In this document: piece by piece, positions 28,780 through 54,697 of the stretch
Numbering within the stretch: the first letter of the stretch is position 1
Layout of the letters: the number at the start of each line of letters is the position of its first letter
DNA from: Chitinophagales bacterium
GTDB lineage: Bacteria > Bacteroidota > Bacteroidia > Chitinophagales > UBA2359
DNA: 54,697 nucleotides
NCBI GenBank assembly: GCA_016787295.1
Contig: JAEUUX010000189.1
Span: 1 to 54,697, forward strand
Direction: 5' to 3'
The notes under the pieces: model-generated
The model's database searches: none
Told to the model about the DNA's origin: nothing
The model's input: only the letters and a program-made list of their open reading frames with translations
Made by a program: the position numbers and the translations under genes

Positions 28780-29297
28780 CTGCAAGGTCATTTTGCAGGT
28801 CTGCAAAGTCATTTTGCAGGTCTGCAAGGTCATTTGTAAGTCTGCAAAGTCATTTTGCAAGTCTGCAAAGTCATTTTGCAGGTCTGCAAGGTCATTTGTA
28901 AGTCTGCAAAGTCATTTTGCAAGTCTGCAAAGTCATTTTGCAGGTCTGCAAAGTCATTTTGCAAGTCTGCAAAGTCATTTTGCAGGTCTGCAAAGTCATT
29001 TTGCAAGTCTGCAAAGTCATTTTGCAAGTCTGCAAGGTCATTTTGCAAGTCTGCAAGGTCATTTTGCAAGTCTGCAAGGTCATTTTGCAGGTCTGCAAGG
29101 TCATTTGTAAGTCTGCAAAGTCATTTTGCAAGTCTGCAAAGTCATTTTGCAAGTCTGCAAAGTCATTTTGCAAGTCTGCAAAGTCATTTTGCAAGTCTGC
29201 AAAGTCATTTTGCAAGTCTGCAAGGTCATTTTGCAGGTCTGCAAGGTCATTTTGCAGGTCTGCAAAGTCATTTTGCAAGTCTGCAAGGTCATTTTTG
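28780..29297. repeat. 21-bp minisatellite, about 25 units
   Basis: The unit is close to TCTGCAAAGTCATTTTGCAAG (21 bases). Units differ mainly at two places, AAAG/AAGG and CAAG/CAGG. Three units are 20 bases long (CATTTGTAAG instead of CATTTTGCAAG). Each unit holds a small inverted repeat, TGCAAA...TTTGCA. Since 21 is a multiple of three and the unit lacks stops in most frames, long frames run through on both strands, but they are artefacts of the repeat. The array lies 140 bases before the Oar-like receptor gene. Confidence 0.92.
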
Positions 29298-37379: not shown

Positions 37380-37429
37380 CCTTAACACAGTTAATTTTGG
37401 TGCGCTTTTATTGTACAATGAAATATAAA

Positions 37430-37465
37430 CGGCCCAACCCGAAAAGCCGACATAACAGAGTAGGG
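37430..37465 (+). promoter_or_regulatory. candidate pseudoknot RNA motif, copy C, upstream of the RiPP precursor
   Basis: CGGC (37430-37433) can pair with GCCG (37446-37449). The 12-nt loop between them contains CCC (37438-37440), followed by GAAAA, and CCC can pair with GGG (37463-37465) after AGAGTA. The copies at 49970-49999 and 53099-53128 keep the same spacing, the GAAAA and the AGAGTA, but the stems are CGC/GCG and GCC/GGC, so both stems change together. The motif ends 26 bases before the start codon, where it could control translation initiation. Confidence 0.5.
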
Positions 37466-37491
37466 ATTTAACTTTTTTTTATTTTTTTCTT

Positions 37492-37659
37492 ATGAAAGAG
37501 CAAACTTCTTTGTCAAGCCTTTCGCTTGAAGTTCAAGCCATTGAGGAAACTCAACAAGGTCAATTAGTAGGTGGTTTTGCAGTACTTAGTAGTTCCTCAT
37601 CAGCAGTGATAGGTACTAACAAAAATTGTGGTTCTATTTGTGTTAATAACGTCTGTTAG
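37492..37659 (+). CDS. RiPP precursor peptide with double-glycine leader and three core cysteines
   Basis: The 55-residue product is a ribosomally made peptide precursor. The leader (1-28) is acidic and ends in QLVGG, a double-glycine site of the type cut by C39 peptidases. The 27-residue core has five consecutive Ser (33-37) and Cys46, Cys50 and Cys55 in the last ten residues (NCGSICVNNVC). A radical SAM/SPASM enzyme gene and a C39-peptidase ABC exporter follow on the same strand, which is what makes the assignment convincing. Likely products are thioether-bridged peptides (sactipeptide or ranthipeptide type) between Cys and other residues; the bridge pattern cannot be read. A terminator-like hairpin lies between precursor and maturase, and a candidate RNA motif precedes it. 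Confidence 0.82.
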   Translation: MKEQTSLSSLSLEVQAIEETQQGQLVGGFAVLSSSSSAVIGTNKNCGSICVNNVC

Positions 37660-37687
37660 TACAGTAAAAAGCACCTAATTTAGCTTT

Positions 37688-37730
37688 AAACTGGGTATTA
37701 AGCTATAATAAGTTTTTACCCAGTTTTTAT
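37688..37730 (+). terminator. attenuator-like hairpin between RiPP precursor and maturase
   Basis: AAACTGGGTA (37688-37697) pairs with TACCCAGTTT (37717-37726) around a 19-nt loop, and is followed by TTTATTATT. Partial termination here would give more precursor than enzyme transcript, a common arrangement in peptide clusters. Confidence 0.65.
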
Positions 37731-37755
37731 TATTAAACTTCAAAATTATGTTCTT

Positions 37756-39045
37756 ATGAAATTTAGTCAATTTAATACCTATATTCCTTATGAAGGAAAA
37801 ATAATAGCTTACAATGCCTATACTAACCAATATCTATTGTTAGAATTTTTGCTATATGAACTCATTCAATCAGCGCAACAATACGGCATAGCATCTTTGG
37901 ACGCAATACACCCAAGTTTCTATCAAGCATTGGTCGATAATGGTTTTGTAGTGGAAGATAACACCAACGAAATTGACAAAGTGAGTCAGTTAATCGACAG
38001 CGTTGACAAGCAGGAAGATAGATATATACTTATCGTTAATCCTACAATGAACTGCAATTTTAAATGTTGGTATTGTTACGAAACACACATCAAAGATTCC
38101 AAAATGGATGCAACTACCTTAGAAAAAGTTAGTCAGCATATCAAGTATGTTGTAGAAAATAAACCATCTCTTAAAGAATTTATAGTATCTTTTTTTGGTG
38201 GAGAGCCATTGTTATATTATGATAAAGTAGTAGTGCCATTACTTAAATACGCTAATCAAATTACCCAAAAACATGGGCTTAATTTTCAGGCGGATTTTAC
38301 AACCAATGGTTTTCTCATAAAACCCAATATGGTAGATACTTTCAAAGAACTATCTGTCAATCATTTTCAAATCACATTAGATGGGGATAAGGAACACCAT
38401 GATACCATTCGTTTTGTATCTAAAAAACGTGGCTCTTATGATGATATTGTTCAAAACATCATTCTATTAGCTAATAATGGTTTACCTGTGACCGTGCGAA
38501 TTAACTATACAGCGCATAATTTAGACAATTTAACTAGTATTTTAGAAGATTTAACATTGCTTACACCTGAAGGCAAACAAAATATCACCATTTCATTGCA
38601 TAAAGTTTGGCAAGAAACAGATAAGTCATTAGGAACGAAAGTTAATACCTTCATTAATTTAGCCAAAAAAGCAGGTTTCAATACAGCTCAAGATATTCTT
38701 ATAGATTCTGTGAGAAACTCTTGCTATGCTGACAAAAATAACCATGCTACTATTAACTACAATGGTGAGGTGTTCAAGTGTACGGCTCGCGATTTTAAAT
38801 CTGGCAACAAAGAAGGAGAATTACACTCTGATGGGTCTATTACTTGGAATGACAAATTCTATAGTAGAATGCAAATTAAACTTCAAAACAAACCTTGTTT
38901 GGAATGTGCCATACTTCCTATTTGTGGGGGGGGGTGTTCACAACAAGCCATAGAACACATTGGGGTTGATTATTGTGTAAACGATTTTGACGAAAACAAG
39001 AAGAAAAATATCGTTTTACAACGGTTTTTAGCTACACATCTCTAA
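37756..39045 (+). CDS. radical SAM/SPASM peptide maturase
   Basis: The 429-residue enzyme binds the SAM-cleaving 4Fe-4S cluster through C100-x3-C104-x2-C107 (CNFKCWYC). A GGE-type SAM motif follows (FFGGEPLLYY near 155). The C-terminal SPASM domain holds further Cys ligands for auxiliary clusters: CYADKNN, FKCTARD, PCLECAILPICGGGC and VDYC. The first 95 residues are a wHTH-like RiPP recognition region that would bind the leader. It would modify the core of the peptide at 37492-37659, most likely by forming thioether or C-C crosslinks. Inside the SPASM Cys motif there is a run of nine G (38926-38934), an unusual choice in this AT-rich gene. Confidence 0.88.
   Translation: MKFSQFNTYIPYEGKIIAYNAYTNQYLLLEFLLYELIQSAQQYGIASLDAIHPSFYQALVDNGFVVEDNTNEIDKVSQLIDSVDKQEDRYILIVNPTMNCNFKCWYCYETHIKDSKMDATTLEKVSQHIKYVVENKPSLKEFIVSFFGGEPLLYYDKVVVPLLKYANQITQKHGLNFQADFTTNGFLIKPNMVDTFKELSVNHFQITLDGDKEHHDTIRFVSKKRGSYDDIVQNIILLANNGLPVTVRINYTAHNLDNLTSILEDLTLLTPEGKQNITISLHKVWQETDKSLGTKVNTFINLAKKAGFNTAQDILIDSVRNSCYADKNNHATINYNGEVFKCTARDFKSGNKEGELHSDGSITWNDKFYSRMQIKLQNKPCLECAILPICGGGCSQQAIEHIGVDYCVNDFDENKKKNIVLQRFLATHL
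38926..38934 (+). repeat. G9 homopolymer inside the maturase gene
   Basis: Nine consecutive G encode Gly391-Gly393 between Cys390 and Cys394. Slippage by one base would shift the frame 36 codons before the end and remove the last SPASM cysteines. The window otherwise rarely uses GGG for glycine. Confidence 0.85.
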
Positions 39046-39065: not shown

Positions 39066-41255
39066 ATGGCAAAATTCAAGTTTTATCATCAATTGGAGGT
39101 GCTTGATTGCGGACCAAGCTGTCTCAAAATGATATTGCATCATTACGGAAAAAACTATTCGATGGCAGAATTGCGGCAGAAATGTAATATTAACCGTTCG
39201 GGTGTAACCCTACACGACATTTCTAAAGGAGCCAAAGAAACAGGTTTTTCAACTTTGGCAGCTTTTCTAACAATAGAAGAGCTGTACAAGATGCCCTTGC
39301 CTTGTATTTTGCATTGGAATCAAGAGCATTTTGTGGTATTATATAAAATAGTTCCCACTAAAAAACTATTCTACATTGCGGATCCTGGTTATGGTAACAT
39401 AAAACTTTCTGAAGAAGATTTCAAAAAACAATGGCAACCCAACAGCAATAAAGGCGTTGCTTTGTTATTAGAACCTGCTGGTAACTTTAATGCGCTTGTG
39501 CCACAAATCTCGGAAGAAAATCAATTGCGACGAATTTTTAGTTTTTTACACAAACACCTTATTCCCCAAAAAAGCAAATTAATAGGTATAAGTTTGTTGC
39601 TGATACTTGCAAGTTTAGCTACATGGCTTTTCCCCTATTTATTATCCTACATGATCGACAATGGTGTCTCCAAAAAAGATATTAACATTGTATTTTGGGT
39701 ATTATTGGCACAAGTAGTTTTGTTTGTCAGTCAGTTAGTTGCTGATTGGTTGCGGGGTATGGTATCGGTTCATCTGAGTACCCAGTTAAGTATGGATATT
39801 ATTTTAGACTTTGTTAAAAAGTTGGTAAAACTACCCATCAACTTTTTCGATAACAGACTCTATACCGACATCATACAAAGGTTAGACGACCACAATCGCA
39901 TAGAAGAATTTTTAAGTTATATGGTAGTACAGTTTATTTTTTCTTTATTCACGTTTGTATTCCTATCCTATACACTTGCTTCCTACAATATCTATGCTTT
40001 TGGTCTTTTTATGCTACTTAGTGTTATGTCTACGGCTTGGGTATGGCTATTTTTAGGCAAACGCCAAATTATTGATTATGCTCGGTTTCATATAAAAGCC
40101 GAAAATCGCAATGTTATTACAGAAACCATCATGGGCATGACAGAAATAAAAATCAACAATGCTCAAGCAGGCAAAATACAGCAACTTAGCAATTTCCAGC
40201 AAAAGTTATATTATCTGAATGTTGCAGCAACGCGTTTGTATTATCATCAACAAGTGGGTGCGTATGGCATTAATCAACTAAAAGGCATTATTATTACAGG
40301 TCTTTGTGCCTATTGGGTTATTGAAGGCCAGCTAACATTAGGAGCAATGATGAGCATCAGCTATATTATGGGACAACTTAGTCAACCGTTACAAAGTTTT
40401 ATCGACTTTTTTCGTTCTGCTCAAGATGCCAAAATTGCTTTCTCTCGTTTAGATGAAATTCAACGCAAAGAAAACGAAAACGTTGATCGAAAAATAAATG
40501 TACTGACCAACTTAGAAAAAGGCATACAATTCGACAATGTTTCTTTTAAGTATGACGGAAGCCATGCTCCATTTGTTTTACAGAATATATCTTTAAACAT
40601 TCCAGCAGGTAAAGTAACGGCTATTGTGGGCGAAAGCGGTAGCGGAAAAACTACTTTATTAAAACTTTTACTCAATTTTTATGCTCCACAAAATGGTACA
40701 ATAATCATCGATGACACTAATATTTGCGAAATTAACCCTGATAAATGGCGCGACATCTGCGGCATTGTACTACAAGAAGGTCACATCTTTAGTGGTACTA
40801 TTGCAGAAAATATTGCATTAGGAAAACAAACCATTGATTACCAATATCTGGAAAAGGTTTGTCAAATGGCATGTCTAAGTTCATTTATTGATGGACTACC
40901 GTTGGGCGTACATACCAAAATAGGTAAGGCAGGAATTGAGTTAAGTGGCGGACAAAAACAACGTATTCTTATCGCAAGAGCCGTTTATAAAAATCCAGAA
41001 TGTCTTTTCTTCGATGAAGCAACAAGTTCCTTAGATGCCAACAATGAAAGAGTCATAACCGAAAATCTTCAACAATTTTATAAAGGGAAAACAGTTGTTG
41101 TTATTGCACACCGCCTAAGTACTGTTAAAAATGCCGACCAAATTATTACCCTACATCAAGGGAAAATAGTAGAAATTGGTAGTCATACACAATTAGCTCA
41201 ACAAAAAGGTTACTATTATCAACTAATTAAAAATCAGTTGGAATTAAGTGCCTAA
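39066..41255 (+). CDS. peptidase C39-containing ABC exporter (RiPP leader cleavage and export)
   Basis: The 729-residue protein has an N-terminal C39 cysteine peptidase domain (1-140) with Cys15 (LDCGPSC), His88 (NQEHFVV) and Asp106 (IADPG). A membrane part of about six helices (165-440) follows, then an ABC ATPase with Walker A GESGSGKTT from 522, LSGGQKQR near 637, Walker B CLFFDEATSSLD and an H-loop IAHRLS. Such transporters cut the leader after GG and export the core across the inner membrane. It lies 20 bases after the maturase gene, so the two form an operon with the precursor. An outer-membrane exit partner (TolC-like) and an HlyD-type linker are not in the window. Confidence 0.92.
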   Translation: MAKFKFYHQLEVLDCGPSCLKMILHHYGKNYSMAELRQKCNINRSGVTLHDISKGAKETGFSTLAAFLTIEELYKMPLPCILHWNQEHFVVLYKIVPTKKLFYIADPGYGNIKLSEEDFKKQWQPNSNKGVALLLEPAGNFNALVPQISEENQLRRIFSFLHKHLIPQKSKLIGISLLLILASLATWLFPYLLSYMIDNGVSKKDINIVFWVLLAQVVLFVSQLVADWLRGMVSVHLSTQLSMDIILDFVKKLVKLPINFFDNRLYTDIIQRLDDHNRIEEFLSYMVVQFIFSLFTFVFLSYTLASYNIYAFGLFMLLSVMSTAWVWLFLGKRQIIDYARFHIKAENRNVITETIMGMTEIKINNAQAGKIQQLSNFQQKLYYLNVAATRLYYHQQVGAYGINQLKGIIITGLCAYWVIEGQLTLGAMMSISYIMGQLSQPLQSFIDFFRSAQDAKIAFSRLDEIQRKENENVDRKINVLTNLEKGIQFDNVSFKYDGSHAPFVLQNISLNIPAGKVTAIVGESGSGKTTLLKLLLNFYAPQNGTIIIDDTNICEINPDKWRDICGIVLQEGHIFSGTIAENIALGKQTIDYQYLEKVCQMACLSSFIDGLPLGVHTKIGKAGIELSGGQKQRILIARAVYKNPECLFFDEATSSLDANNERVITENLQQFYKGKTVVVIAHRLSTVKNADQIITLHQGKIVEIGSHTQLAQQKGYYYQLIKNQLELSA

Positions 41256-41376: not shown

Positions 41377-42834
41377 ATGAAAAAAACTTTTTTTGGGTTC
41401 TTGCTATGTATATTGACCCTTTTTTATAGTCTCAACATATTTTCACAAAATAACCACCAAATTGTTATTGCGTTTTCTCCTACCACCCCTCAACAATATA
41501 TCGATTCTGTAAAAAGCGCCCTACATGCGACAGAAGTAGGCATTTCATATCCCTCTCGGTCGCGTTTATGGGAATCTCCCTTATTTGATGCTGCCAACAA
41601 TTCTTTACATGGCATTGAAGAAGATCATCAAAATACCGGCACTGCTAAAACCAAAATACAAAGTTTTGGATTGAATGATACATTATTTGTAGGAAACAAC
41701 GATTATTCTACTACAACCTACAATTGCTATAGCATTTGCGATTATCCTACGAATCAGGGGACAAACATAAAAATAGCGTTGGTGGATACAGGCATTGATA
41801 CTACACATCAGGGTTTATCAGATGCGCGTTTCTGGGCTAATACAAACGAAATCAGTAATGGCATTGATGATGATGCAAATGGTTTTGTTGATGATACTAA
41901 TGGTTGGAATTTTGTTGATGATAATCCCCATAACCTCGACCCCAATAGTCATGGCACGCATTTGGCAGGTATTATGTATCAGGTATTTTCTCAGTATCAA
42001 ATAGCTAATAATGTTGCTATTATGAATCTCAAAACACAAGATAGTACTGGATATGGCACACTCTGGAATACTATCAGAGCTATTGACTATGCCAATAGTA
42101 ATGGAGCAAAGGTTATCAATCTTAGTTTGGGAACCTATTATATAATGCCTGCTATGAATGGCATAGCACATCCTCTACAATATGCTATTGACATAGCTGC
42201 GAGTAATCAAGTTTTAGTAGTTGCCTCAGCAGGAAACGATATGACCAATACCGATATAGTACCTCATTATCCTTCTAGTTTTAATAGTGCCAATTTGCTT
42301 TCTGTTATGTCTGTTGATTGCAACAATAATCAATCATGGTTCACCAATTATGGAAGCAATACTACACACATTGCCGCTCCTGGTGATAATATAAAAAGCA
42401 CCATTCCCAACAATATGTATGCCTATAAAAGCGGCACATCAATGGCTACTGCCTATATAACGGCTATTGCGGCTTTATTATATACTTATCAAAATACTTT
42501 TGACGCAATAACAGTCAAAGATGCCATTCTTCAAACGGCTTCATTTGCCAATCTTCCCAATAGCTCTCATGGTGTTGTCAATCCCTGTGGAGCAATACAC
42601 TACCTAATAAATGGAGCTAATAAACAAGAGCAATTACAAACAATAGTAATGTACTCACCCAACACCACAACACTATACAATCTAAATGGGCAAGCAATAT
42701 GGCAATCTTCTGATTTGGTAACGGCTGAACATCTTTTTGAAATCCAAGGACTACAGAATCTTCCAACTGGAATGTATATACTACATTCTCAAAACAACCT
42801 AACAAATCAGATTCAAAAGATTGTTAAACCATAA
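41377..42834 (+). CDS. secreted subtilisin-like serine peptidase (S8) with T9SS sorting domain
   Basis: The 485-residue protein has a signal peptide (about 1-23), a prodomain-like part (24-120), an S8 catalytic domain with Asp137 (LVDTGID), His192 (SHGTHLAG) and Ser355 (GTSMATA), and an 80-residue C-terminus with T9SS type A features (LYNLNGQAIWQSS, LPTGMYILHSQNN). An EF-hand-like acidic stretch (NGIDDDANGFVDDTNGWNF, about 158-176) between the D and H motifs is common in these enzymes. It would be exported through the outer membrane. It lies 122 bases after the RiPP exporter on the same strand and may act on neighbouring proteins or the peptide; that link is inference. A strong terminator follows at 42984-43031. 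Confidence 0.9.
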   Translation: MKKTFFGFLLCILTLFYSLNIFSQNNHQIVIAFSPTTPQQYIDSVKSALHATEVGISYPSRSRLWESPLFDAANNSLHGIEEDHQNTGTAKTKIQSFGLNDTLFVGNNDYSTTTYNCYSICDYPTNQGTNIKIALVDTGIDTTHQGLSDARFWANTNEISNGIDDDANGFVDDTNGWNFVDDNPHNLDPNSHGTHLAGIMYQVFSQYQIANNVAIMNLKTQDSTGYGTLWNTIRAIDYANSNGAKVINLSLGTYYIMPAMNGIAHPLQYAIDIAASNQVLVVASAGNDMTNTDIVPHYPSSFNSANLLSVMSVDCNNNQSWFTNYGSNTTHIAAPGDNIKSTIPNNMYAYKSGTSMATAYITAIAALLYTYQNTFDAITVKDAILQTASFANLPNSSHGVVNPCGAIHYLINGANKQEQLQTIVMYSPNTTTLYNLNGQAIWQSSDLVTAEHLFEIQGLQNLPTGMYILHSQNNLTNQIQKIVKP

Positions 42835-43326: not shown

Positions 43327-46173
43327 ATGAAATTCCATGCCCCATCATTTCTTATTTTACTGTTGCTATCTCATTTTGCATTAGCTCAAAAAGGCGAACA
43401 AGAAATTTTTTGCGCCATAGAAAAAGCCGACTCGCTCTTTGACAAAAATCGCAATTTAGAAGGATTAGAGGTCTTACTACGTTGCAAACAACGCCAACAG
43501 CAAGACTCTTTATCTTTGACATTTGCACAACTATATTACAAAATAGGGAAAGGCTATTACTATGCCGACTTCAATGACTCGGCATTGTATTATTTTAACA
43601 AAACATTGCAAAGACAAAAACTATTATTGGGCAATGATCACAAAGACACACAATATACTCGCTATGTTATTGTACTTGCTCACGAAAGTATGCGAAACTA
43701 TCGCACTGCCATGCCTCTTATCGAGGATTTGATAAACATTGAAGAACACAAAAAAACGCCTAATGACACCACCTTAGCTAACTATTATTTACTGCTAAGT
43801 GGAATAGCTTGTGGATTGGGTGATGCTGAAAAAACAGAACGATATGCCAACAAATCGTTGCGTTTTTATGAATGTTATAGTCAGTACTTAGCGGCTAATT
43901 GCTATGTTGCCAAAGGACTTGCTCATGCCCAAACCGAAACGCATGAAAAAGCTCTACCCAATTATTTAATTGCTCAAGAAATGTACAAACAATGCCATGA
44001 TATACCTGCTTACATGCATTGTGTTAGTCTTTTAGGTATTACATACCGCAAACTAAAACAACCTTACATAGCCTTACAATATCTACAAGAAGCTATCAAA
44101 TATAACCAAAGCAACCCTAACTTTAGTTTTAATTTAGCAGGTGACTGGGCTAATGTAGCTATTGTAAAAAAAGACTTAGGGCTATATGACGAAGCTATTG
44201 CTGCCTTAAATACTTCTAAACAAATTTACCAAATCCACCATCTAAGCAATAATATGAACAATGCTTCGTATTATGACAATATAGGAGATGTTTTTTTCTT
44301 GCAAGGCAAAGATACAGCCAGCCTCGAAGCCTATCAAAAATCAATGAACTATTTACTTACATTTAATTATCAAAAACTCGATGACAATCCTTCAATACAC
44401 AATGCCTCCATCGAAAATCCTCTCTTGCTTTTCAACATTATGTTTTCCAAAGCTCAAACATTCTATCATATTGCAAAACAACACAATAATGAACAAGCCT
44501 TAGATGCCGCCTACAATACTTGTCTAAGCATTGATACCCTCATTACACACATACAACAAAATATCCAAAGTGACGAATCTGTCATTGCGTTTAACCAAAA
44601 AATAGCTAAATTTTATGAATTAGCTATAAAAGTAACCATTATCCAAAAACCCGAACAAGCATTTTTATTTGCAGAAAAAGGAAAAGCTTTTGTTTTAAGA
44701 AAATTTTTACAAAATATCCAAGCCTTACAACTTGCAAATATCCCTAATAGCATTATTTCCGAAGACCAGAATTTTATTAATCGTATTGCTCACATAGAAA
44801 ATCTTATAGCACAACACCCACACAACACATCTCTGCAAGACTCTTTATTTAAATTGTATAACCAAAGACAAGATTTTTTAATTCAATTAGAAAATAATTA
44901 TCCCAATTATTTTCAACTCAAATATGCCAACCAAATACCTTCTGTCGATAAAATAAAACAACTGTTAGTTCCTCATCAAGCATTGGTCAGTTATTATATA
45001 GGCAACGAATCTTACTATATATTTGTGCTAACCCAAAATTCATTTAAATACTATGAATTTCCCAAAGAAAATGACTTTAGTAGCTGTTTAAATGATTTTT
45101 TAATAGCAACTCAACAAATGCTTCCTACTAATGAGTATCCTATTCTAGCCCATTATTGGTATGAACGTTTATTGAAAAAAGTAATAAGCACCTTACCTAC
45201 CGACGTTAATAGATTAATTATTATTCCAGATGCAGAATTAGGTTACATACCTTTTGACATCTTAGTAGAACACCCCCCAGAGCAATGGCATAATAACACT
45301 AAAATCCCAGCATGGCAAAATATAGCCATGCCATTGGTTCTCAAACGTTTTGCTGTTTCATACAATTATACCATTATGCAGCTAATTGATGCCCAAGACA
45401 GCATACAAGTAGCTAATTTCAAAACAGTTAGTTTTGGTTTGGATTATAAAGACCCACAATTACTCGCCGAGCTGAACAATGATTTGCAAACAGAAACCTC
45501 AACAACCAGATCTAGTTTAGGACAATTGCCTCATGCTCCCGTAGAAGCACTAAATATTGCTGATTTAATGAAAGGAGAAGCATACCTCAACAAGCAAGCC
45601 ACCCTTAGCAACTTTTGGAAAGTCTCCCAAAAATATAGTATCATACACTTGGCAATGCACGGAATTATTGATGACGACAATCCCTTAAACTCCAAATTAG
45701 CTTTTAACAAAGATATTAATAAGGCACCCTGTTATCTTACCGCAGCAGACCTCTATGGACAACAACTCAAAGCAACAATGGTAGTCCTAAGCGCTTGTAA
45801 TAGCGGCAATGGCACTTTAAAACGAAGCGAAGGCATTATGAGCCTTGCACGTGCTTTTGCTTTTGCGGGTTGCCATAGCCTTGTGATGAGTCTGTGGAAC
45901 TTATCTGATGAACCTACTTCTGTTATTATGCAAAACTTTTATCATCATCTAAAACTTGGAAAACCCAAAGATATAGCACTACAAAATGCCAAAATCGATT
46001 ATTTTACTCAACAAAAATTCAATACAAGATATCCTGTCAATTGGGGAAGTTTTGTGCTTGTGGGAAATATCCATGCCATTGAAGAAAAAAACAACTGGGG
46101 TTTTGATGCTGTTCTCATTGTGGCTGTATTAGTTTTGCCTACTATCTTGTATATACACAAACAAAGAAAATAA
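43327..46173 (+). CDS. exported TPR-CHAT cysteine protease with C-terminal membrane anchor
   Basis: The 948-residue protein starts with a signal peptide (about 1-20, HFALAQKG). It continues with TPR-type helices (about 25-480), a linker, and a caspase-like CHAT domain (about 640-915). The catalytic dyad is His778 (LAMHGII) and Cys824 (SACNSGNG). A single hydrophobic segment (AVLIVAVLVLPTILYI) with a basic end KQRK anchors the C-terminus in the inner membrane, so the TPR and protease parts face the periplasm. CHAT proteases cut selected partner proteins once a TPR sensor is engaged. The targets here are unknown; the membrane TPR proteins of the two sigma pairs are candidates because they have exposed TPR tails. 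Confidence 0.87.
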   Translation: MKFHAPSFLILLLLSHFALAQKGEQEIFCAIEKADSLFDKNRNLEGLEVLLRCKQRQQQDSLSLTFAQLYYKIGKGYYYADFNDSALYYFNKTLQRQKLLLGNDHKDTQYTRYVIVLAHESMRNYRTAMPLIEDLINIEEHKKTPNDTTLANYYLLLSGIACGLGDAEKTERYANKSLRFYECYSQYLAANCYVAKGLAHAQTETHEKALPNYLIAQEMYKQCHDIPAYMHCVSLLGITYRKLKQPYIALQYLQEAIKYNQSNPNFSFNLAGDWANVAIVKKDLGLYDEAIAALNTSKQIYQIHHLSNNMNNASYYDNIGDVFFLQGKDTASLEAYQKSMNYLLTFNYQKLDDNPSIHNASIENPLLLFNIMFSKAQTFYHIAKQHNNEQALDAAYNTCLSIDTLITHIQQNIQSDESVIAFNQKIAKFYELAIKVTIIQKPEQAFLFAEKGKAFVLRKFLQNIQALQLANIPNSIISEDQNFINRIAHIENLIAQHPHNTSLQDSLFKLYNQRQDFLIQLENNYPNYFQLKYANQIPSVDKIKQLLVPHQALVSYYIGNESYYIFVLTQNSFKYYEFPKENDFSSCLNDFLIATQQMLPTNEYPILAHYWYERLLKKVISTLPTDVNRLIIIPDAELGYIPFDILVEHPPEQWHNNTKIPAWQNIAMPLVLKRFAVSYNYTIMQLIDAQDSIQVANFKTVSFGLDYKDPQLLAELNNDLQTETSTTRSSLGQLPHAPVEALNIADLMKGEAYLNKQATLSNFWKVSQKYSIIHLAMHGIIDDDNPLNSKLAFNKDINKAPCYLTAADLYGQQLKATMVVLSACNSGNGTLKRSEGIMSLARAFAFAGCHSLVMSLWNLSDEPTSVIMQNFYHHLKLGKPKDIALQNAKIDYFTQQKFNTRYPVNWGSFVLVGNIHAIEEKNNWGFDAVLIVAVLVLPTILYIHKQRK

Positions 46174-49771: not shown

Positions 49772-49842
49772 ATGTAGCACAAGGTTTAGGACTTGCTCCA
49801 CCCAAAAACTATATACCATCTACTACTTGTGCAAAAATTTTT

Positions 49843-50010
49843 CAAAAAAATATCCCGCCTTTGGTAAGGTTTTTCCATGTTTTTCCCTTTATAGGTTATA
49901 CATCTGAAAAATCGATTAGTCAAGTTGTCAAAGGAAAATCCCCCGAACATCCTCATAAAAAAGTAGGGGCGCGTATGCCGAAAAGCGAATAGAGTAGGCG
50001 GTGTTTTTTT
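49843..50010 (+). repeat. upstream repeat A, shared with the neighbouring T9SS esterase gene
   Basis: These 168 bases are about 90 percent identical to 52971-53137. Both lie directly before a gene for a T9SS-exported protein and end in the same RNA motif and T-run. They contain a TACATCTG (A) or TACATTTG (B) promoter-like box and a conserved CAAGTTGTCAAAGGAAAATC stretch. Confidence 0.85.
49940..49999 (+). promoter_or_regulatory. candidate pseudoknot RNA motif, copy A, upstream of the M43 protease gene
   Basis: CCCC in 49940-49944 can pair with GGGG (49966-49969). Next, CGC (49970-49972) can pair with GCG (49985-49987), and GCC in that loop (49977-49979) can pair with GGC (49997-49999). GAAAA and AGAGTA lie between the stems as in copy C. 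The motif ends 20 bases before the start codon. Confidence 0.5.
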
Positions 50011-50019
50011 ACTCTTTTT

Positions 50020-52896
50020 ATGAAAAATTTTTGCATTATTTTATTATTTCTTTTTATTGATGCTGTAGTACTTGCTCAAACAACAGAGTGTGCGTTCAAT
50101 CCTACTCAAGCACAAATAGATGCCATAGATTTTATTTATCAAGATGCCCCTTATTTTGATTTGGCAGATATTGCAGCAGACCCTATAGACTATATTCCTA
50201 TTACTGCTATCATTGTACGTCAAACTGATGGCACAGGCGGGCTATCTACAACAGACCTAAACAATGCTATTACGCGTTTGAATACGCTATATAGCAGTAT
50301 GCATATTCAATTCTTTTTATGTAGTACAAAGTATGTTAACAATAGCACCTATTATAACTTTAATAATAGCCAAGAAAATGCTTTAGCAAGTGGCAATGAG
50401 GTAAGCAATACTATCAACATATTTTTTGTGAATACTGCTGTAGCAGGCAGTACTCCTGTTTGTGGATATGCTTATTTTCCAGGAGCGTATGACCGAATTA
50501 TTATGGCTAATGCTTGTGCTACTAATGGAAGTACCTTAGCTCATGAAATGGGGCATTACTTTGGGCTTTTACATACATTCCATTTATATAATGAGAATGT
50601 TCCGCGCACTGGTACTTGTTCTAATTGTACTACTGCGGGTGATCGTTTATGTGATACTCCTGCCGATAGAGGTGTGGGTTTTACGGCTTATCCAACATGT
50701 TCCTACACTGGCACTGCTGTTGATAATTGTAGTATCGCTTTAGCAACAAATCCTCCAAGTCCGCGAAATTTAATGTCTTATGGAGACAAACCATGTAGAG
50801 ATATGTTTACTCCTCAACAACAAGGAGTCATCATTAGTACTAATAATGCTTATCGTTCTTATTTGGCTTGTTCTACACCTTGCAATACTCCCACCAATTT
50901 AACAGCATCACCCACTACCAACACAGCTACACTTAGTTGGAGCGCTGTTAGTGGGGCAGTTAGTTATAATGTACAATACAAACCTAATGGTGCTACTACT
51001 TGGACTACAGTATCTGCCACAACAAGCACGCTAAGTTTAACAGGACTAAGTAGTGCTACTACTTATCAATTCCAAGTGCAGACAGTTTGTGGAGGTGGTG
51101 CTAGTGTCTATAGCACTATAGCAAACTTTACTACCAATTCTACTTGTTATGCACTTAGTTTTAATGGCAGCCAAAGAGTAACCATTCCCAACAATACAAC
51201 TATTACACCCAATCCTATGGCATTAGGTACGGGTGATTTCACCGTAACAGCCTGGATTAAAGCCAGTAATGTGACTGGTAAAAGAGCCATTATTTCTAAA
51301 AGAAGTACAACAAGTAATGGTTTTATAGTTGGTATAGATGAAAACGGTAAATTGTTTGCTCGTGTAGGTGCAACTGATTTACCAGCCGTTACTAATAGCC
51401 CAAACTTAAAAGATGGAACTTGCCACCATGTTGCCCTTGCTCGTAGAAGTAATATGTATTGGTTTGTTATTGACGGAACATCTTATTTGGGTAATTATCC
51501 TACTACAGGTGCCAACGCCGATGTTTCTACCACATCTGCCTTAATCATTGGGCAAGATGCCGTAATTGGTTCGGGTATCAATGGCTTTGTAGGCACTATT
51601 GACGAAGTACAAATCTGGAAAAGAGTGCTAAATGCTACCGAAATACAAAACAATTCCATGAATGGCGTAGAATTTGCCAACCGTGCTTATCTAACTGCCT
51701 ATTGGAAGTTTGATGAAACATCGGGACAAACAATCAGTGATTTGACCGGCAAAGGCAATAATGGATATTTGGGTACTTCTACCTCAGTAACAACTACCGA
51801 CCCTACACGTACCAACACAGCTACTGATATTTGCCGTTGTCCTGCCCCTGCCGCCACACTCAATTGCAACCAATTGAGCCTTGGTACTATCAACGATTTT
51901 ATTAAAATCAATAATCCTTTTGCAACCATTACGGGAGATTGGACTATAGAAATGTGGTTAAAAATACCTGCTGGCACTCCCAATGGTAGTGTTATCTTTA
52001 CTAATCAAAATAGTGCTACATCTGCCAATACAGGCAAAGGGCTTAACTTCTATCTGTCAAATGGCAATATAAAAGTGTTCAATCCCAAAGAATATTCTTT
52101 TGGAACAAGCAGCGGAACATTAGCTACAGACCAATGTATGCACTTTTATGTTACCTACAATAGTGTTACTAAATCTCTTAATCATGCCAATGATTATGGA
52201 AACATAGGCGCTACATCAACAAGCGGTGGGTGGACTATGAATGTCGATATCAATAGTGGCAATCCTCTCTACATTGGAGGCTATGGCACTGGTCCTGCAT
52301 TTACTGACATAAATGGAGTGGCACAACAGAGCATGGTTGGTTTTGTTGATGAAATTCGCATTTGGAACAAAAAATCAGCCGACATTAGTGCGCAGTTAGG
52401 CAAACCACAATTAATAGGTACAGAAACGGGTTTGATTGGCAATTGGCGATTAAACGAAGGTAGTGGACAAAATTTAACTAACTCAAAAACAGGTACTGTC
52501 GATGCTTACTTGGGTAACAGTAGTAGTGCCGAAACTGCTAATGACCCTATCTGGAGTACTAATACCTCTTGTGTTTGTAATGTTAATCCAAGCACGGGTA
52601 AATATACCAATATCTTAGACAATACCGTAGCTGCCGAAAATGGCATAAAACTATATCCTAATCCTGCAACTGATTGGATAAATGTGGAATATACTGCCAC
52701 AAGTGATAATGCTACTGATATAGAAGTCCAAGTAGTTGACCTCACTGGCAAAATAGTATATAGTACTACCATGCCAATTACAGACCAAACTACTTATTTC
52801 TCCCTACCAACTAATAATTTAGTAGCGGGTATGTATTTAGTAGAAATAAAAAGCGCTACAGCTCGACATATCCAACGCATAGTCATACAACGATAA
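50020..52896 (+). CDS. secreted M43-family metalloprotease with FN3, two LamG-like domains and T9SS sorting domain
   Basis: The 958-residue protein has a signal peptide (about 1-19), a metalloprotease domain (about 60-285) with the zinc motif HEMGHYFGLLH (His175, Glu176, His179, His185) and a Met-turn MSYGDKPC, a fibronectin type III domain (about 290-372; NLTASPTTNTATLSWSAVSG), two LamG/concanavalin-like domains (about 376-600 and 610-820), and a T9SS type A domain (about 870-958; LYPNPATDWINVEY). The pregnancy-associated plasma protein/ulilysin family fits the catalytic part. It would be exported through T9SS and attached or released at the cell surface, cutting proteins while the LamG domains bind glycans or matrix. 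Its upstream region is shared with the next gene. Confidence 0.92.
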   Translation: MKNFCIILLFLFIDAVVLAQTTECAFNPTQAQIDAIDFIYQDAPYFDLADIAADPIDYIPITAIIVRQTDGTGGLSTTDLNNAITRLNTLYSSMHIQFFLCSTKYVNNSTYYNFNNSQENALASGNEVSNTINIFFVNTAVAGSTPVCGYAYFPGAYDRIIMANACATNGSTLAHEMGHYFGLLHTFHLYNENVPRTGTCSNCTTAGDRLCDTPADRGVGFTAYPTCSYTGTAVDNCSIALATNPPSPRNLMSYGDKPCRDMFTPQQQGVIISTNNAYRSYLACSTPCNTPTNLTASPTTNTATLSWSAVSGAVSYNVQYKPNGATTWTTVSATTSTLSLTGLSSATTYQFQVQTVCGGGASVYSTIANFTTNSTCYALSFNGSQRVTIPNNTTITPNPMALGTGDFTVTAWIKASNVTGKRAIISKRSTTSNGFIVGIDENGKLFARVGATDLPAVTNSPNLKDGTCHHVALARRSNMYWFVIDGTSYLGNYPTTGANADVSTTSALIIGQDAVIGSGINGFVGTIDEVQIWKRVLNATEIQNNSMNGVEFANRAYLTAYWKFDETSGQTISDLTGKGNNGYLGTSTSVTTTDPTRTNTATDICRCPAPAATLNCNQLSLGTINDFIKINNPFATITGDWTIEMWLKIPAGTPNGSVIFTNQNSATSANTGKGLNFYLSNGNIKVFNPKEYSFGTSSGTLATDQCMHFYVTYNSVTKSLNHANDYGNIGATSTSGGWTMNVDINSGNPLYIGGYGTGPAFTDINGVAQQSMVGFVDEIRIWNKKSADISAQLGKPQLIGTETGLIGNWRLNEGSGQNLTNSKTGTVDAYLGNSSSAETANDPIWSTNTSCVCNVNPSTGKYTNILDNTVAAENGIKLYPNPATDWINVEYTATSDNATDIEVQVVDLTGKIVYSTTMPITDQTTYFSLPTNNLVAGMYLVEIKSATARHIQRIVIQR

Positions 52897-52970
52897 GTTG
52901 CAACACCCTATTCAGCACTACCTCAACTCTTTTGTTCCTGCCAATCCAACACAAAAAAAGCACAAAAAAT

Positions 52971-53137
52971 CAAAAAAAATATCCCAACTTTGGTAAGGTT
53001 TTTCCATGTTTTCCCCTTTATAGGTTATACATTTGAACAATAGATTAGTCAAGTTGTCAAAGGAAAATCCCCCAAACATCCTCATAAAAAAGTAGGGGCG
53101 CGTATGCCGAAAAGCGAATAGAGTAGGCGGTGTTTTT
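52971..53137 (+). repeat. upstream repeat B, shared with the M43 protease gene
   Basis: This is the second copy of the 167-bp region at 49843-50010, directly before the T9SS esterase gene. TACATTTG at 53028-53035 matches the -7 consensus. Confidence 0.85.
53069..53128 (+). promoter_or_regulatory. candidate pseudoknot RNA motif, copy B, upstream of the T9SS esterase gene
   Basis: Same sequence as copy A: CGC (53099-53101) with GCG (53114-53116), and GCC (53106-53108) with GGC (53126-53128). It ends 23 bases before the start codon at 53152. Confidence 0.5.
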
Positions 53138-53151
53138 TTAATTTTTTTTCT

Positions 53152-54697
53152 ATGAAATTTTTATCTTACATTCGTTTTCTATTTTGTCTGGCTGCATTAG
53201 TTGGCTCATCTAAGCAAACTATCTTTGCACAATGTCCATCATTCATTGACGTTTCTCATACCATTATGCCTTATTATACGCCTCTTGATCTTAGTTATAA
53301 TATACAAAATCCCAGTGCAACAGTCGTTTATGAAACCGTAAAAAGAATTTGGCCCGTTAATGGTACGGCTTATGGCAATGCAATTCCTGTCAAAATGGAT
53401 ATTTATCGCCCTGTGGATTTAGTTGGAGAAACAAATATCCAACGTCCTGTAGTTATCTTATGTCATGGTGCTAATCGTCGTCGTTTTTCTCCTGAATGGC
53501 AAATAAGGGCGCAAGATTTCACACGCAGGGGTTATGTCGTCGTAAGTATAGATTATAGAGCTGATGTTGCGTTTAATCTATTAGAAGCACTAACCATTGC
53601 TTCTCAATGTAACACCGCAGATTGCAAAAGAAAAAGTGTAGATAGAACAATTTATTCCAATGCGATGGATGTTCATAATGCCATTAGTTATTTGGTAGCT
53701 AATCAAACAGCTCTTAAAATTAATCCCAATAAAATTATCATCGGCGGACATAGTCTGGGAGCGGCTACTTCTTTTGTGGCGAGTTGTTTAGATAAAAATG
53801 AAGTATTAGCAGGTACTTTTCCTTCCGACTTTTTGACTAATCCTTTTTATATCAACTTAGCTACCCATCGAAGCCGTATTAAAGGAGCTATTTTGTGGGG
53901 TTCTGCTACTACTGACGTTAATTATTTGGACAGTAGCGACAATGTTCCTTTGTTTATTTTTCATGGCACGTATGACCCTGCCGCTCCTTTTTATTCAGGC
54001 AAACAATTTTGCGATAACCTCAACCCAATTTATTATGGCGGGGCACCTGTTGCAATACGAGCCGATAGTTTTATCACTCCCTACTCCTATTATTTCGTAG
54101 AAGCACGCGGAGCAGGACATATTACGGGAGTATCGTGCCAATATCTTCCTTTTGGCGACTCCAATGAAACACTTCAAATGCTATGGTCTCCCGATTTGTT
54201 GCGTTTTATGAAAACAACTATGCTCGAAGGCACTGTTAATCAAGTACATAAAATTGTTACTCCGCTCAATACAAGCCAATATGACTATTGCACAGGTGTT
54301 CAAAACACTTATTGCAATGGAAATGCCGATGAATTTATTCCTACACCAAGCGCTGCCGTAGCTTGTTTTCAGTCTCCTGCCTTTACTTTGAGTACCATGC
54401 CTTGGAACAATGGTAATAATAATTACAGTAGTTGTACCGCACCTATTGTTTGTCCTGCTCCTGATGGTGTTTGTGGTGGATATGGCAAAGTTGAGATGTC
54501 AAGTTCCTCTCCTGCCCCCACCCTCTCCCTATACCCCAACCCCACGAGCAACCACACCACCCTACAATACAACACCAACACCGACGAAACAGCCACCGTC
54601 ACACTACTCGACCTTAGTGGAAAAACAGTCGCCATCAACAACGAATACGCCACCGCTGGCAGCAATGAATTTGGCATAGATACCAACCAACTACCCG
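53152..54697 (+). CDS. secreted alpha/beta hydrolase with T9SS sorting domain (partial, runs off the window)
   Basis: The frame stays open for 515 codons to the end of the window. It has a signal peptide (about 1-28, QTIFAQC), an alpha/beta hydrolase domain (about 75-360) with oxyanion segment VILCHGANRR, nucleophile Ser201 in GGHSLGA, an Asp in IFHGTYDPAAPF and His in GAGHITG, and the start of a T9SS type A domain (LSLYPNPTSN onward, about 460). Similar proteins act on ester bonds outside the cell; the substrate is unknown. The last 190 bases switch to C-ending codons, unlike the T/A-ending codons before them. The upstream region and RNA motif are shared with the M43 protease gene, so the two are probably co-regulated. 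Confidence 0.88.
   Translation, partial: MKFLSYIRFLFCLAALVGSSKQTIFAQCPSFIDVSHTIMPYYTPLDLSYNIQNPSATVVYETVKRIWPVNGTAYGNAIPVKMDIYRPVDLVGETNIQRPVVILCHGANRRRFSPEWQIRAQDFTRRGYVVVSIDYRADVAFNLLEALTIASQCNTADCKRKSVDRTIYSNAMDVHNAISYLVANQTALKINPNKIIIGGHSLGAATSFVASCLDKNEVLAGTFPSDFLTNPFYINLATHRSRIKGAILWGSATTDVNYLDSSDNVPLFIFHGTYDPAAPFYSGKQFCDNLNPIYYGGAPVAIRADSFITPYSYYFVEARGAGHITGVSCQYLPFGDSNETLQMLWSPDLLRFMKTTMLEGTVNQVHKIVTPLNTSQYDYCTGVQNTYCNGNADEFIPTPSAAVACFQSPAFTLSTMPWNNGNNNYSSCTAPIVCPAPDGVCGGYGKVEMSSSSPAPTLSLYPNPTSNHTTLQYNTNTDETATVTLLDLSGKTVAINNEYATAGSNEFGIDTNQLP

Follow-up and report, generated by a model that had tools for sequence, protein, structure and literature searches.

The DUF805b RNA (RF02914) was reportedly described originally by Weinberg et al. 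in 2017 in NAR, and the motif is already catalogued in Rfam as a cis-regulatory RNA family (type Cis-reg, clan CL00115). In the literature searched, no described function was found for DUF805b and DUF805 was not found together with the term riboswitch; the passages obtained from PMC9723704 and PMC8040213 do not name the motif. DUF805 RNA (RF03081), of the same clan, holds the same core (CCGAAAA ... GAGUAGG) in its 3' half, but has an extra 5' hairpin (GUGG...CCAC) that DUF805b is without. In topology, small size, and closeness to the start codon, DUF805b is similar to the H-type pseudoknot riboswitches SAM-V and preQ1-I, the latter being a riboswitch class with this fold. However, the targets of DUF805b are not pathway-coherent, and the motif, whose end is about 22 nt upstream of the AUG, does not overlap a ribosome-binding site. 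As with DUF805b, the tisB standby and rpsO pseudoknots of E. coli are located in mRNA leaders, where, according to passages of PMC7708055, they are read by the 30S subunit with bS1; the same passages report that bS1 binds a SELEX H-type pseudoknot and also the rpsO, tmRNA, preQ1, and tisB pseudoknots. Nevertheless, tisB is described there as having a single-stranded standby region about 100 nt upstream of a masked site, whereas DUF805b has a short and near-constant spacing, lies in an AU-rich leader, and recurs before many unrelated genes.

The window analyzed here, that is, the whole stretch of 54,697 nt from a Chitinophagales bacterium (contig JAEUUX010000189.1), contains three copies of the motif, whose parts are as follows:

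37429-37466, forward strand: DUF805b RNA copy 1 (sequence; cmscan RF02914, 38.6 bits, cut-off 35.6)
37430-37433 (CGGC) and 37446-37449 (GCCG), forward strand: stem 1 of copy 1, from the sequence
37434-37437, forward strand: loop CCAA of copy 1, from the sequence
37438-37440 (CCC) and 37463-37465 (GGG), forward strand: pseudoknot stem 2 of copy 1, from the sequence
37441-37445 (GAAAA) and 37457-37462 (AGAGTA), forward strand: unpaired blocks of copy 1, from the sequence
37467-37491, forward strand: AU-rich spacer from copy 1 to the start codon; with base 37466 added, stem 2 and the ATG at 37492 are 26 nt apart
49831-50032, forward strand: unit 1 of a leader duplication (repeat search, 90% identity to unit 2)
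49968-50000, forward strand: DUF805b-like RNA copy 2 (cmscan RF02914, 34.8 bits, cut-off 35.6, E 3.7e-6)
49970-49972 (CGC) and 49985-49987 (GCG), forward strand: stem 1 of copy 2, from the sequence
49977-49979 (GCC) and 49997-49999 (GGC), forward strand: stem 2 of copy 2, with loop GTAT, from the sequence
50020, forward strand: start codon ATG after copy 2, spacer 20 nt, from the sequence
52960-53161, forward strand: unit 2 of the leader duplication (repeat search, 202-nt units)
53097-53129, forward strand: DUF805b-like RNA copy 3 (cmscan RF02914, 34.8 bits, cut-off 35.6, E 3.7e-6)
53099-53101 (CGC) and 53114-53116 (GCG), forward strand: stem 1 of copy 3, from the sequence
53106-53108 (GCC) and 53126-53128 (GGC), forward strand: stem 2 of copy 3, from the sequence
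53152, forward strand: start codon ATG after copy 3, spacer 23 nt, from the sequence

When the window was scanned with cmscan against all families of Rfam 15, the three copies matched the RF02914 model over its full length (1-35 of 35), with an E-value of 1.9e-7 for copy 1 and 3.7e-6 for each of the other two. Copy 1, which passes the gathering score of 35.6 bits, is a DUF805b RNA. The window copies share stem 1 and the CCGAAAA and AGAGUAGG blocks with the family, but in copies 2 and 3 stem 1 has 3 bp and the score falls 0.8 bits short, and they are filed here as relatives with the same core and not as members. The nested structure line given by cmscan omits the pseudoknot stem found here. The first-pass annotation of this DNA, which had drawn three copies with a shared order of stems and loops ending 20-26 nt before a start codon, is borne out by the sequence in its coordinates and pairings and by the measured distances of 26, 20, and 23 nt upstream of an ATG on the same strand, a placement in cis. 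It had also counted only two independent sequences, and this count stands, since copies 2 and 3 lie in one duplicated leader of 202 nt with 90% identity; its statement that the motif belonged to no class it knew, and with it the idea of an unrecognized motif, gives way to the RF02914 match. RF03081 is not reported in the window, where clan competition leaves the better family only, and has no match at E ≤ 0.001 in the genome of the window (cut-off of this family, 51.1 bits). Elsewhere in the window, a tandem repeat of a 21-nt unit (CTGCAAAGTCATTTTGCAAGT) at 28780-29295, with 24.7 copies and 93% matches, gives spurious microRNA-family matches in a permissive Rfam search.

Comparison across genomes leaves little doubt that the motif would fold as an H-type pseudoknot in which both stems covary. 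Among 297 pattern matches collected blind to stem 1, a 4-bp stem 1 with the expected 4-nt loop is present in 139, and no other loop length accounts for more than 21. Moreover, 191 copies were selected by stem 1 alone, and 172 of them have a Watson-Crick pair at the variable position of stem 2 (G-C in 113, U-A in 28, A-U in 16, and C-G in 15), whereas 2000 shuffles of this pair gave 84 on average and 99 at most, in a comparison that ignores relatedness, over-represents related genomes, and has the GG of the 3' half fixed by the pattern; it is the presence of four pair types across many genera that makes the fold convincing despite a shuffle blind to relatedness. Among the pattern matches without stem 1, the same pair is Watson-Crick in 19 of 70. 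These statistics come only from sets blind to the stem tested; a further set of 276 copies was selected on both stems. Thus, the compensatory changes first proposed from the window, weak with two sequences, become strong across other genomes, and the further copies foreseen at that time do occur in large numbers. The CCGAAAA and AGAGUAGG blocks are written in capitals, that is, as highly conserved, in the Rfam consensus line, and their conservation is quoted from this line and not from our own counts because our patterns fixed parts of the blocks (CCGAAAA and AGAGTAGG in the early scan, AAAA and GAGTAGG in the later ones).

The motif is widespread and unevenly distributed in Bacteroidota. RF02914 has a match at E ≤ 1e-3 in 118 of 395 genomes, which represent 62 of 171 genera, and none at this level in the other 277; in 76 of the 395, a match exceeds the gathering score. 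Motif-positive genomes have 1 to 16 copies each. None of 14 control genomes has a match at E ≤ 1e-3, and a scan at E ≤ 10 that included the genome of the window gives weak matches in all 14, none of them over the cut-off. The genome of the window (5.42 Mb in 296 contigs) has six matches at E ≤ 0.001, and 17 of 20 genomes of its family have a match. RF03081 is found at E ≤ 0.001 in 5 of these 20 genomes, in four of them over its cut-off, and the control Bacteroides ihuae also has one. In a relative of the window genome (L402:1468-1536), a DUF805 RNA consisting of the hairpin plus the same pseudoknot core is located directly before a gene whose product, as judged by eye, resembles a DUF805 protein. 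Once duplicates were removed, a pattern scan of IMG/VR yielded at least 67 copies having both stems, in viral contigs that may include host DNA; the named-genome scan (at least 113 stretches) and the viral scan (at least 120 stretches) are both samples. A plasmid search with the leader of copy 1 returned no match, nor did a phage DNA search and some phage-protein searches, and another phage-protein search matched 102 phage records. In Flavobacterium phage MT497078 (L386:7939-7969), an altered DUF805b-like sequence, directly after a TATATTTG box, terminates about 22 nt ahead of the gene upstream of ERF, the gene matched by protein search being preceded by this altered form only.

The two sides of the pseudoknot behave differently in their surroundings. 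On the 3' side, a start codon, defined as the first ATG opening at least 40 codons, is located 16-28 nt past the motif in most copies, namely 178 of 204 in bacteria and 50 of 66 in viral contigs. The same spacing was seen in 3 of 258 controls taken from the opposite strand, in 15 of 254 that start 250 nt upstream, and in 5 of 49 pattern hits lacking both stems. On the 5' side there is A-richness over about 15 nt and then a featureless stretch with no fixed geometry; -7 boxes occur at varying positions and are slightly more frequent 20-30 nt upstream of stem 1, where one 10-nt bin holds 9 as compared with 1-4 in each of the others. On these grounds a fixed promoter or 5'-end element was rejected. 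Co-directional ORFs of at least 150 codons located upstream stop 1-20 nt short of the motif at 13 of 179 bacterial copies, and a further eight copies begin inside such an ORF, the farther bins of ORF ends (-300 to -81) holding 1-6 copies each; among 52 viral-contig copies, two begin 1-20 nt after the stop of an upstream ORF and two inside one. Several loci have one copy before each of successive genes. At four of them (L286, L293, L295, and L300), two or three DUF805b copies each precede one neighboring gene, and one motif-led gene at L286 encodes a caspase-domain protein. A motif that is tied to its own start codon and not to a promoter, and that is usable inside an operon, would most simply act on the translation of that one gene.

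The composition of the leaders is in agreement with such a role. Adenines at -3, -6, -12, and -13 have been reported as favorable to initiation in Bacteroidia, a group whose ribosomes work without Shine-Dalgarno pairing, in passages of PMC6847099 and PMC9976891, and the stretch from -20 to +20 around the start is reported to be poorly paired in a passage of PMC6847099; the pseudoknot sits just outside this stretch. In 197 bacterial leaders, A occupies the four positions in 64, 56, 74, and 64%, respectively, the corresponding values for 521 other ORF starts from these loci being 49, 43, 51, and 48%; these controls are longest-ORF starts that are partly wrong and cruder than the leader starts. 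Thus, the leaders look built for good initiation. A Shine-Dalgarno element (a purine-rich complement of the anti-SD about 5-10 nt before the AUG) was not found in 238 leaders, where G makes up at most 7% at -4 to -16. Across 256 leaders, the motif was predicted to form no stronger duplex with the spacer and start region than with shuffled versions of this sequence (p 0.62), so that the motif is not an obvious mask and masking of the start codon was rejected.

From this geometry and from comparison, DUF805b RNA may be regarded as a compact H-type pseudoknot in the mRNA leader, composed of a stem 1 of 3-5 bp, a loop of about 4 nt, an NCC/GGN stem 2, a GAAAA bridge, and an AGAGUA block, its 3' end lying about 22 nt upstream of the AUG of the gene that it would serve. 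It would act in cis on translation initiation of that single gene, from a site that borders the start-codon stretch from outside and would face the platform side of the bound 30S subunit. There, the folded pseudoknot would most likely favor initiation, with the 30S subunit or bS1 recognizing it as a docking or standby element, in a phylum without Shine-Dalgarno pairing; we infer the action on translation, its positive sign, and the contact with the ribosome or bS1, and give this reading about an even chance. When set against a ribosome standby or bS1-read pseudoknot, the motif agrees in geometry and leader composition only. The diversity of its targets, including genes on viral contigs, speaks for an initiation element, whereas its conserved unpaired bases would fit a ligand aptamer too and count against it.

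In the window, the genes led by the three copies and their neighbors are the following:

37492-37659, forward strand: 55-aa peptide with a Cys-containing C-terminus, a probable RiPP precursor judging from the neighboring maturase and C39 exporter
37756-39045, forward strand: radical SAM/SPASM peptide maturase (PF04055 4.9e-21; TIGR04463 1.4e-46, under the equivalog cut-off)
39066-41255, forward strand: C39-peptidase ABC peptide exporter (PF03412 1.3e-35, PF00005 1.5e-30)
41377-42834, forward strand: subtilase-family protease (PF00082 2.5e-42) with a possible T9SS tail (PF18962 0.00037, under the cut-off)
50020-52896, forward strand: 958-aa T9SS-exported protein with LamG, FN3, and M43-like protease parts (PF18962 1.4e-13, PF13385 4.5e-30, PF05572 2.3e-08)
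53152-54697, forward strand: esterase-like T9SS-exported protein, cut by the contig end (PF20434 3.9e-14, PF18962 4.1e-07)

The proteins led by copies 2 and 3 look exported, as predicted from type IX secretion tails over the Pfam cut-off, and the 55-aa peptide, which itself matches no family in Pfam or NCBIfam, looks exported on account of its neighbors, the maturase and the C39 exporter; the first-pass description of all three products as exported is thus upheld as a prediction. Downstream of the peptide cluster, at 43327-46173, lies a 948-aa protein that combines TPR repeats with a CHAT domain. The other two both-stem copies of this genome precede lipoprotein-like genes, as judged by eye.

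In other genomes the motif is followed by very diverse genes. The motif-led proteins form 129 bacterial and 43 viral-contig clusters, and families were scanned on one representative per cluster for 123 of the former (76 and 47) and 41 of the latter, six bacterial and two viral-contig clusters with short, cut, or doubtful ORFs having been dropped by eye. Among the families listed for these 76, 47, and 41 representatives, at most 25 per search, none dominates and no pathway is shared: they include T9SS tails, DUF6520, rSAM-modified and lanthipeptide leaders, bacteriocin-like peptides, rhodopsin-like, HU/IHF-like, DUF2589, PixA, caspase-domain, DUF805, RDD, and phage-type proteins, and, on viral contigs, nucleases and regulators. 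At L034 and L145, a copy is located shortly before a 249-aa protein, taken as the sole Bac_rhodopsin match of the 76 scanned. A T9SS tail is found at E ≤ 0.01 in at least 4 of 123 bacterial representatives (3 of 76 and 1 of 47), a lower bound given that long proteins are cut at locus ends, both T9SS proteins of the window among them. An element exclusive to T9SS or RiPP genes was rejected on this count and on the many unrelated families that follow the motif. Nevertheless, by a simple hydrophobicity rule made for this analysis, exported products are enriched among the longer motif-led proteins, with a predicted signal-peptide-like N-terminus in 64% of 110 proteins of at least 120 aa vs. 31% of 523 ORFs of the same loci; for 87 shorter motif-led proteins the figure, one without a control, is 32%. 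At one exported-protein gene of one genus, the motif is kept before 15 of 15 orthologues (15 of 61 genomes, three of the 15 having come from the motif search itself), exact in 14 and altered in one, about 21-29 nt before the start, which indicates that it is under selection at that gene. Codon usage gives no sign of high expression, since the C-ending fraction for Phe, Tyr, Asn, and Ile is 0.349 in motif-led genes and 0.351 in same-locus ORFs (176 comparisons, p 0.96), GC3 being lower in motif-led genes (0.347 vs. 0.373), and ribosomal-protein or elongation-factor families are absent among the families listed. Thus, a general enhancer of expression strength is unsupported and was rejected, a local initiation element being kept as its weaker form.

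The main rival to an initiation element is a translational riboswitch, in which the pseudoknot would be the aptamer of a small global signal whose binding turns initiation of the next gene on or off. This could be proposed from the 35-position model with its capitalized unpaired blocks (CCGAAAA and AGAGUAGG), from the shortness of the stems, which would call for tertiary or ligand contacts, from targets that are accessory and conditionally useful, and from SAM-V, which controls translation and is an H-type pseudoknot according to PMC6061858. However, the 129 bacterial and 43 viral-contig clusters share no pathway among the families listed, the gene context names no ligand, and there is no excess pairing with the start region. 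The sole global ligand tested, c-di-GMP, was rejected as unlikely: GGDEF (PF00990, E ≤ 1e-10) is present in none of the 64 motif-positive genomes of the window's own order and class, its own genome included, although it occurs in 38 of the 54 other motif-positive genomes and in 189 of 395 overall, the two lists having been compared by hand. No Rfam c-di-GMP family was found in the window. A riboswitch is a possibility to which we would give well under an even chance, and a contact with the 30S subunit or bS1 that aids initiation is ranked as somewhat more likely than the reporting of a ligand.

The motif might instead serve as the operator of a dedicated RNA-binding protein, an activator or repressor under whose control exported and accessory genes would form a regulon; this is rated unlikely. 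Its regulon-like set of 1 to 16 copies per positive genome, the export enrichment among longer proteins, and its uneven spread (118 of 395 genomes) would suit such a protein, but no candidate was identified and, given the viral-contig copies, phages would have to rely on the same regulator of the host. A 5'-end mRNA stabilizer or a transcription-level element (attenuator or promoter part) is very improbable: apart from the weak -7 box excess upstream of stem 1, there is no fixed promoter distance, some copies lie directly after or overlap upstream genes, only about 22 nt separate the motif from the AUG, and the sole terminator-like site in 37380-37760 is on the opposite strand. Chance similarity or the leftover of a mobile repeat, to which the single duplicated leader of copies 2 and 3 might point, has a negligible probability in view of the Rfam scores, the covariation and spacing relative to shuffles and controls, and the retention at 15 of 15 orthologues.

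How the ribosomes of Bacteroidota choose start sites without Shine-Dalgarno pairing is an unsettled question, for which this motif, common to exported proteins, bacteriocin-like peptides, and viral-contig genes at a near-constant distance from the AUG, is a concrete and easily tested object. The initiation element favored here could, more tentatively, be a portable module, that is, a pseudoknot of 30-35 nt at the exit side of the 30S subunit about 22 nt before the AUG, as geometry and comparison suggest. If so, it would replace the Shine-Dalgarno sequence, or serve as a small ribosome-entry element, in Shine-Dalgarno-less Bacteroidota and their phages, and each accessory gene would obtain its own ribosome recruitment, even inside operons. 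This would explain the control of a number of RiPP and secreted-protein genes in the phylum, and the motif could find use as an expression part for Bacteroidota.
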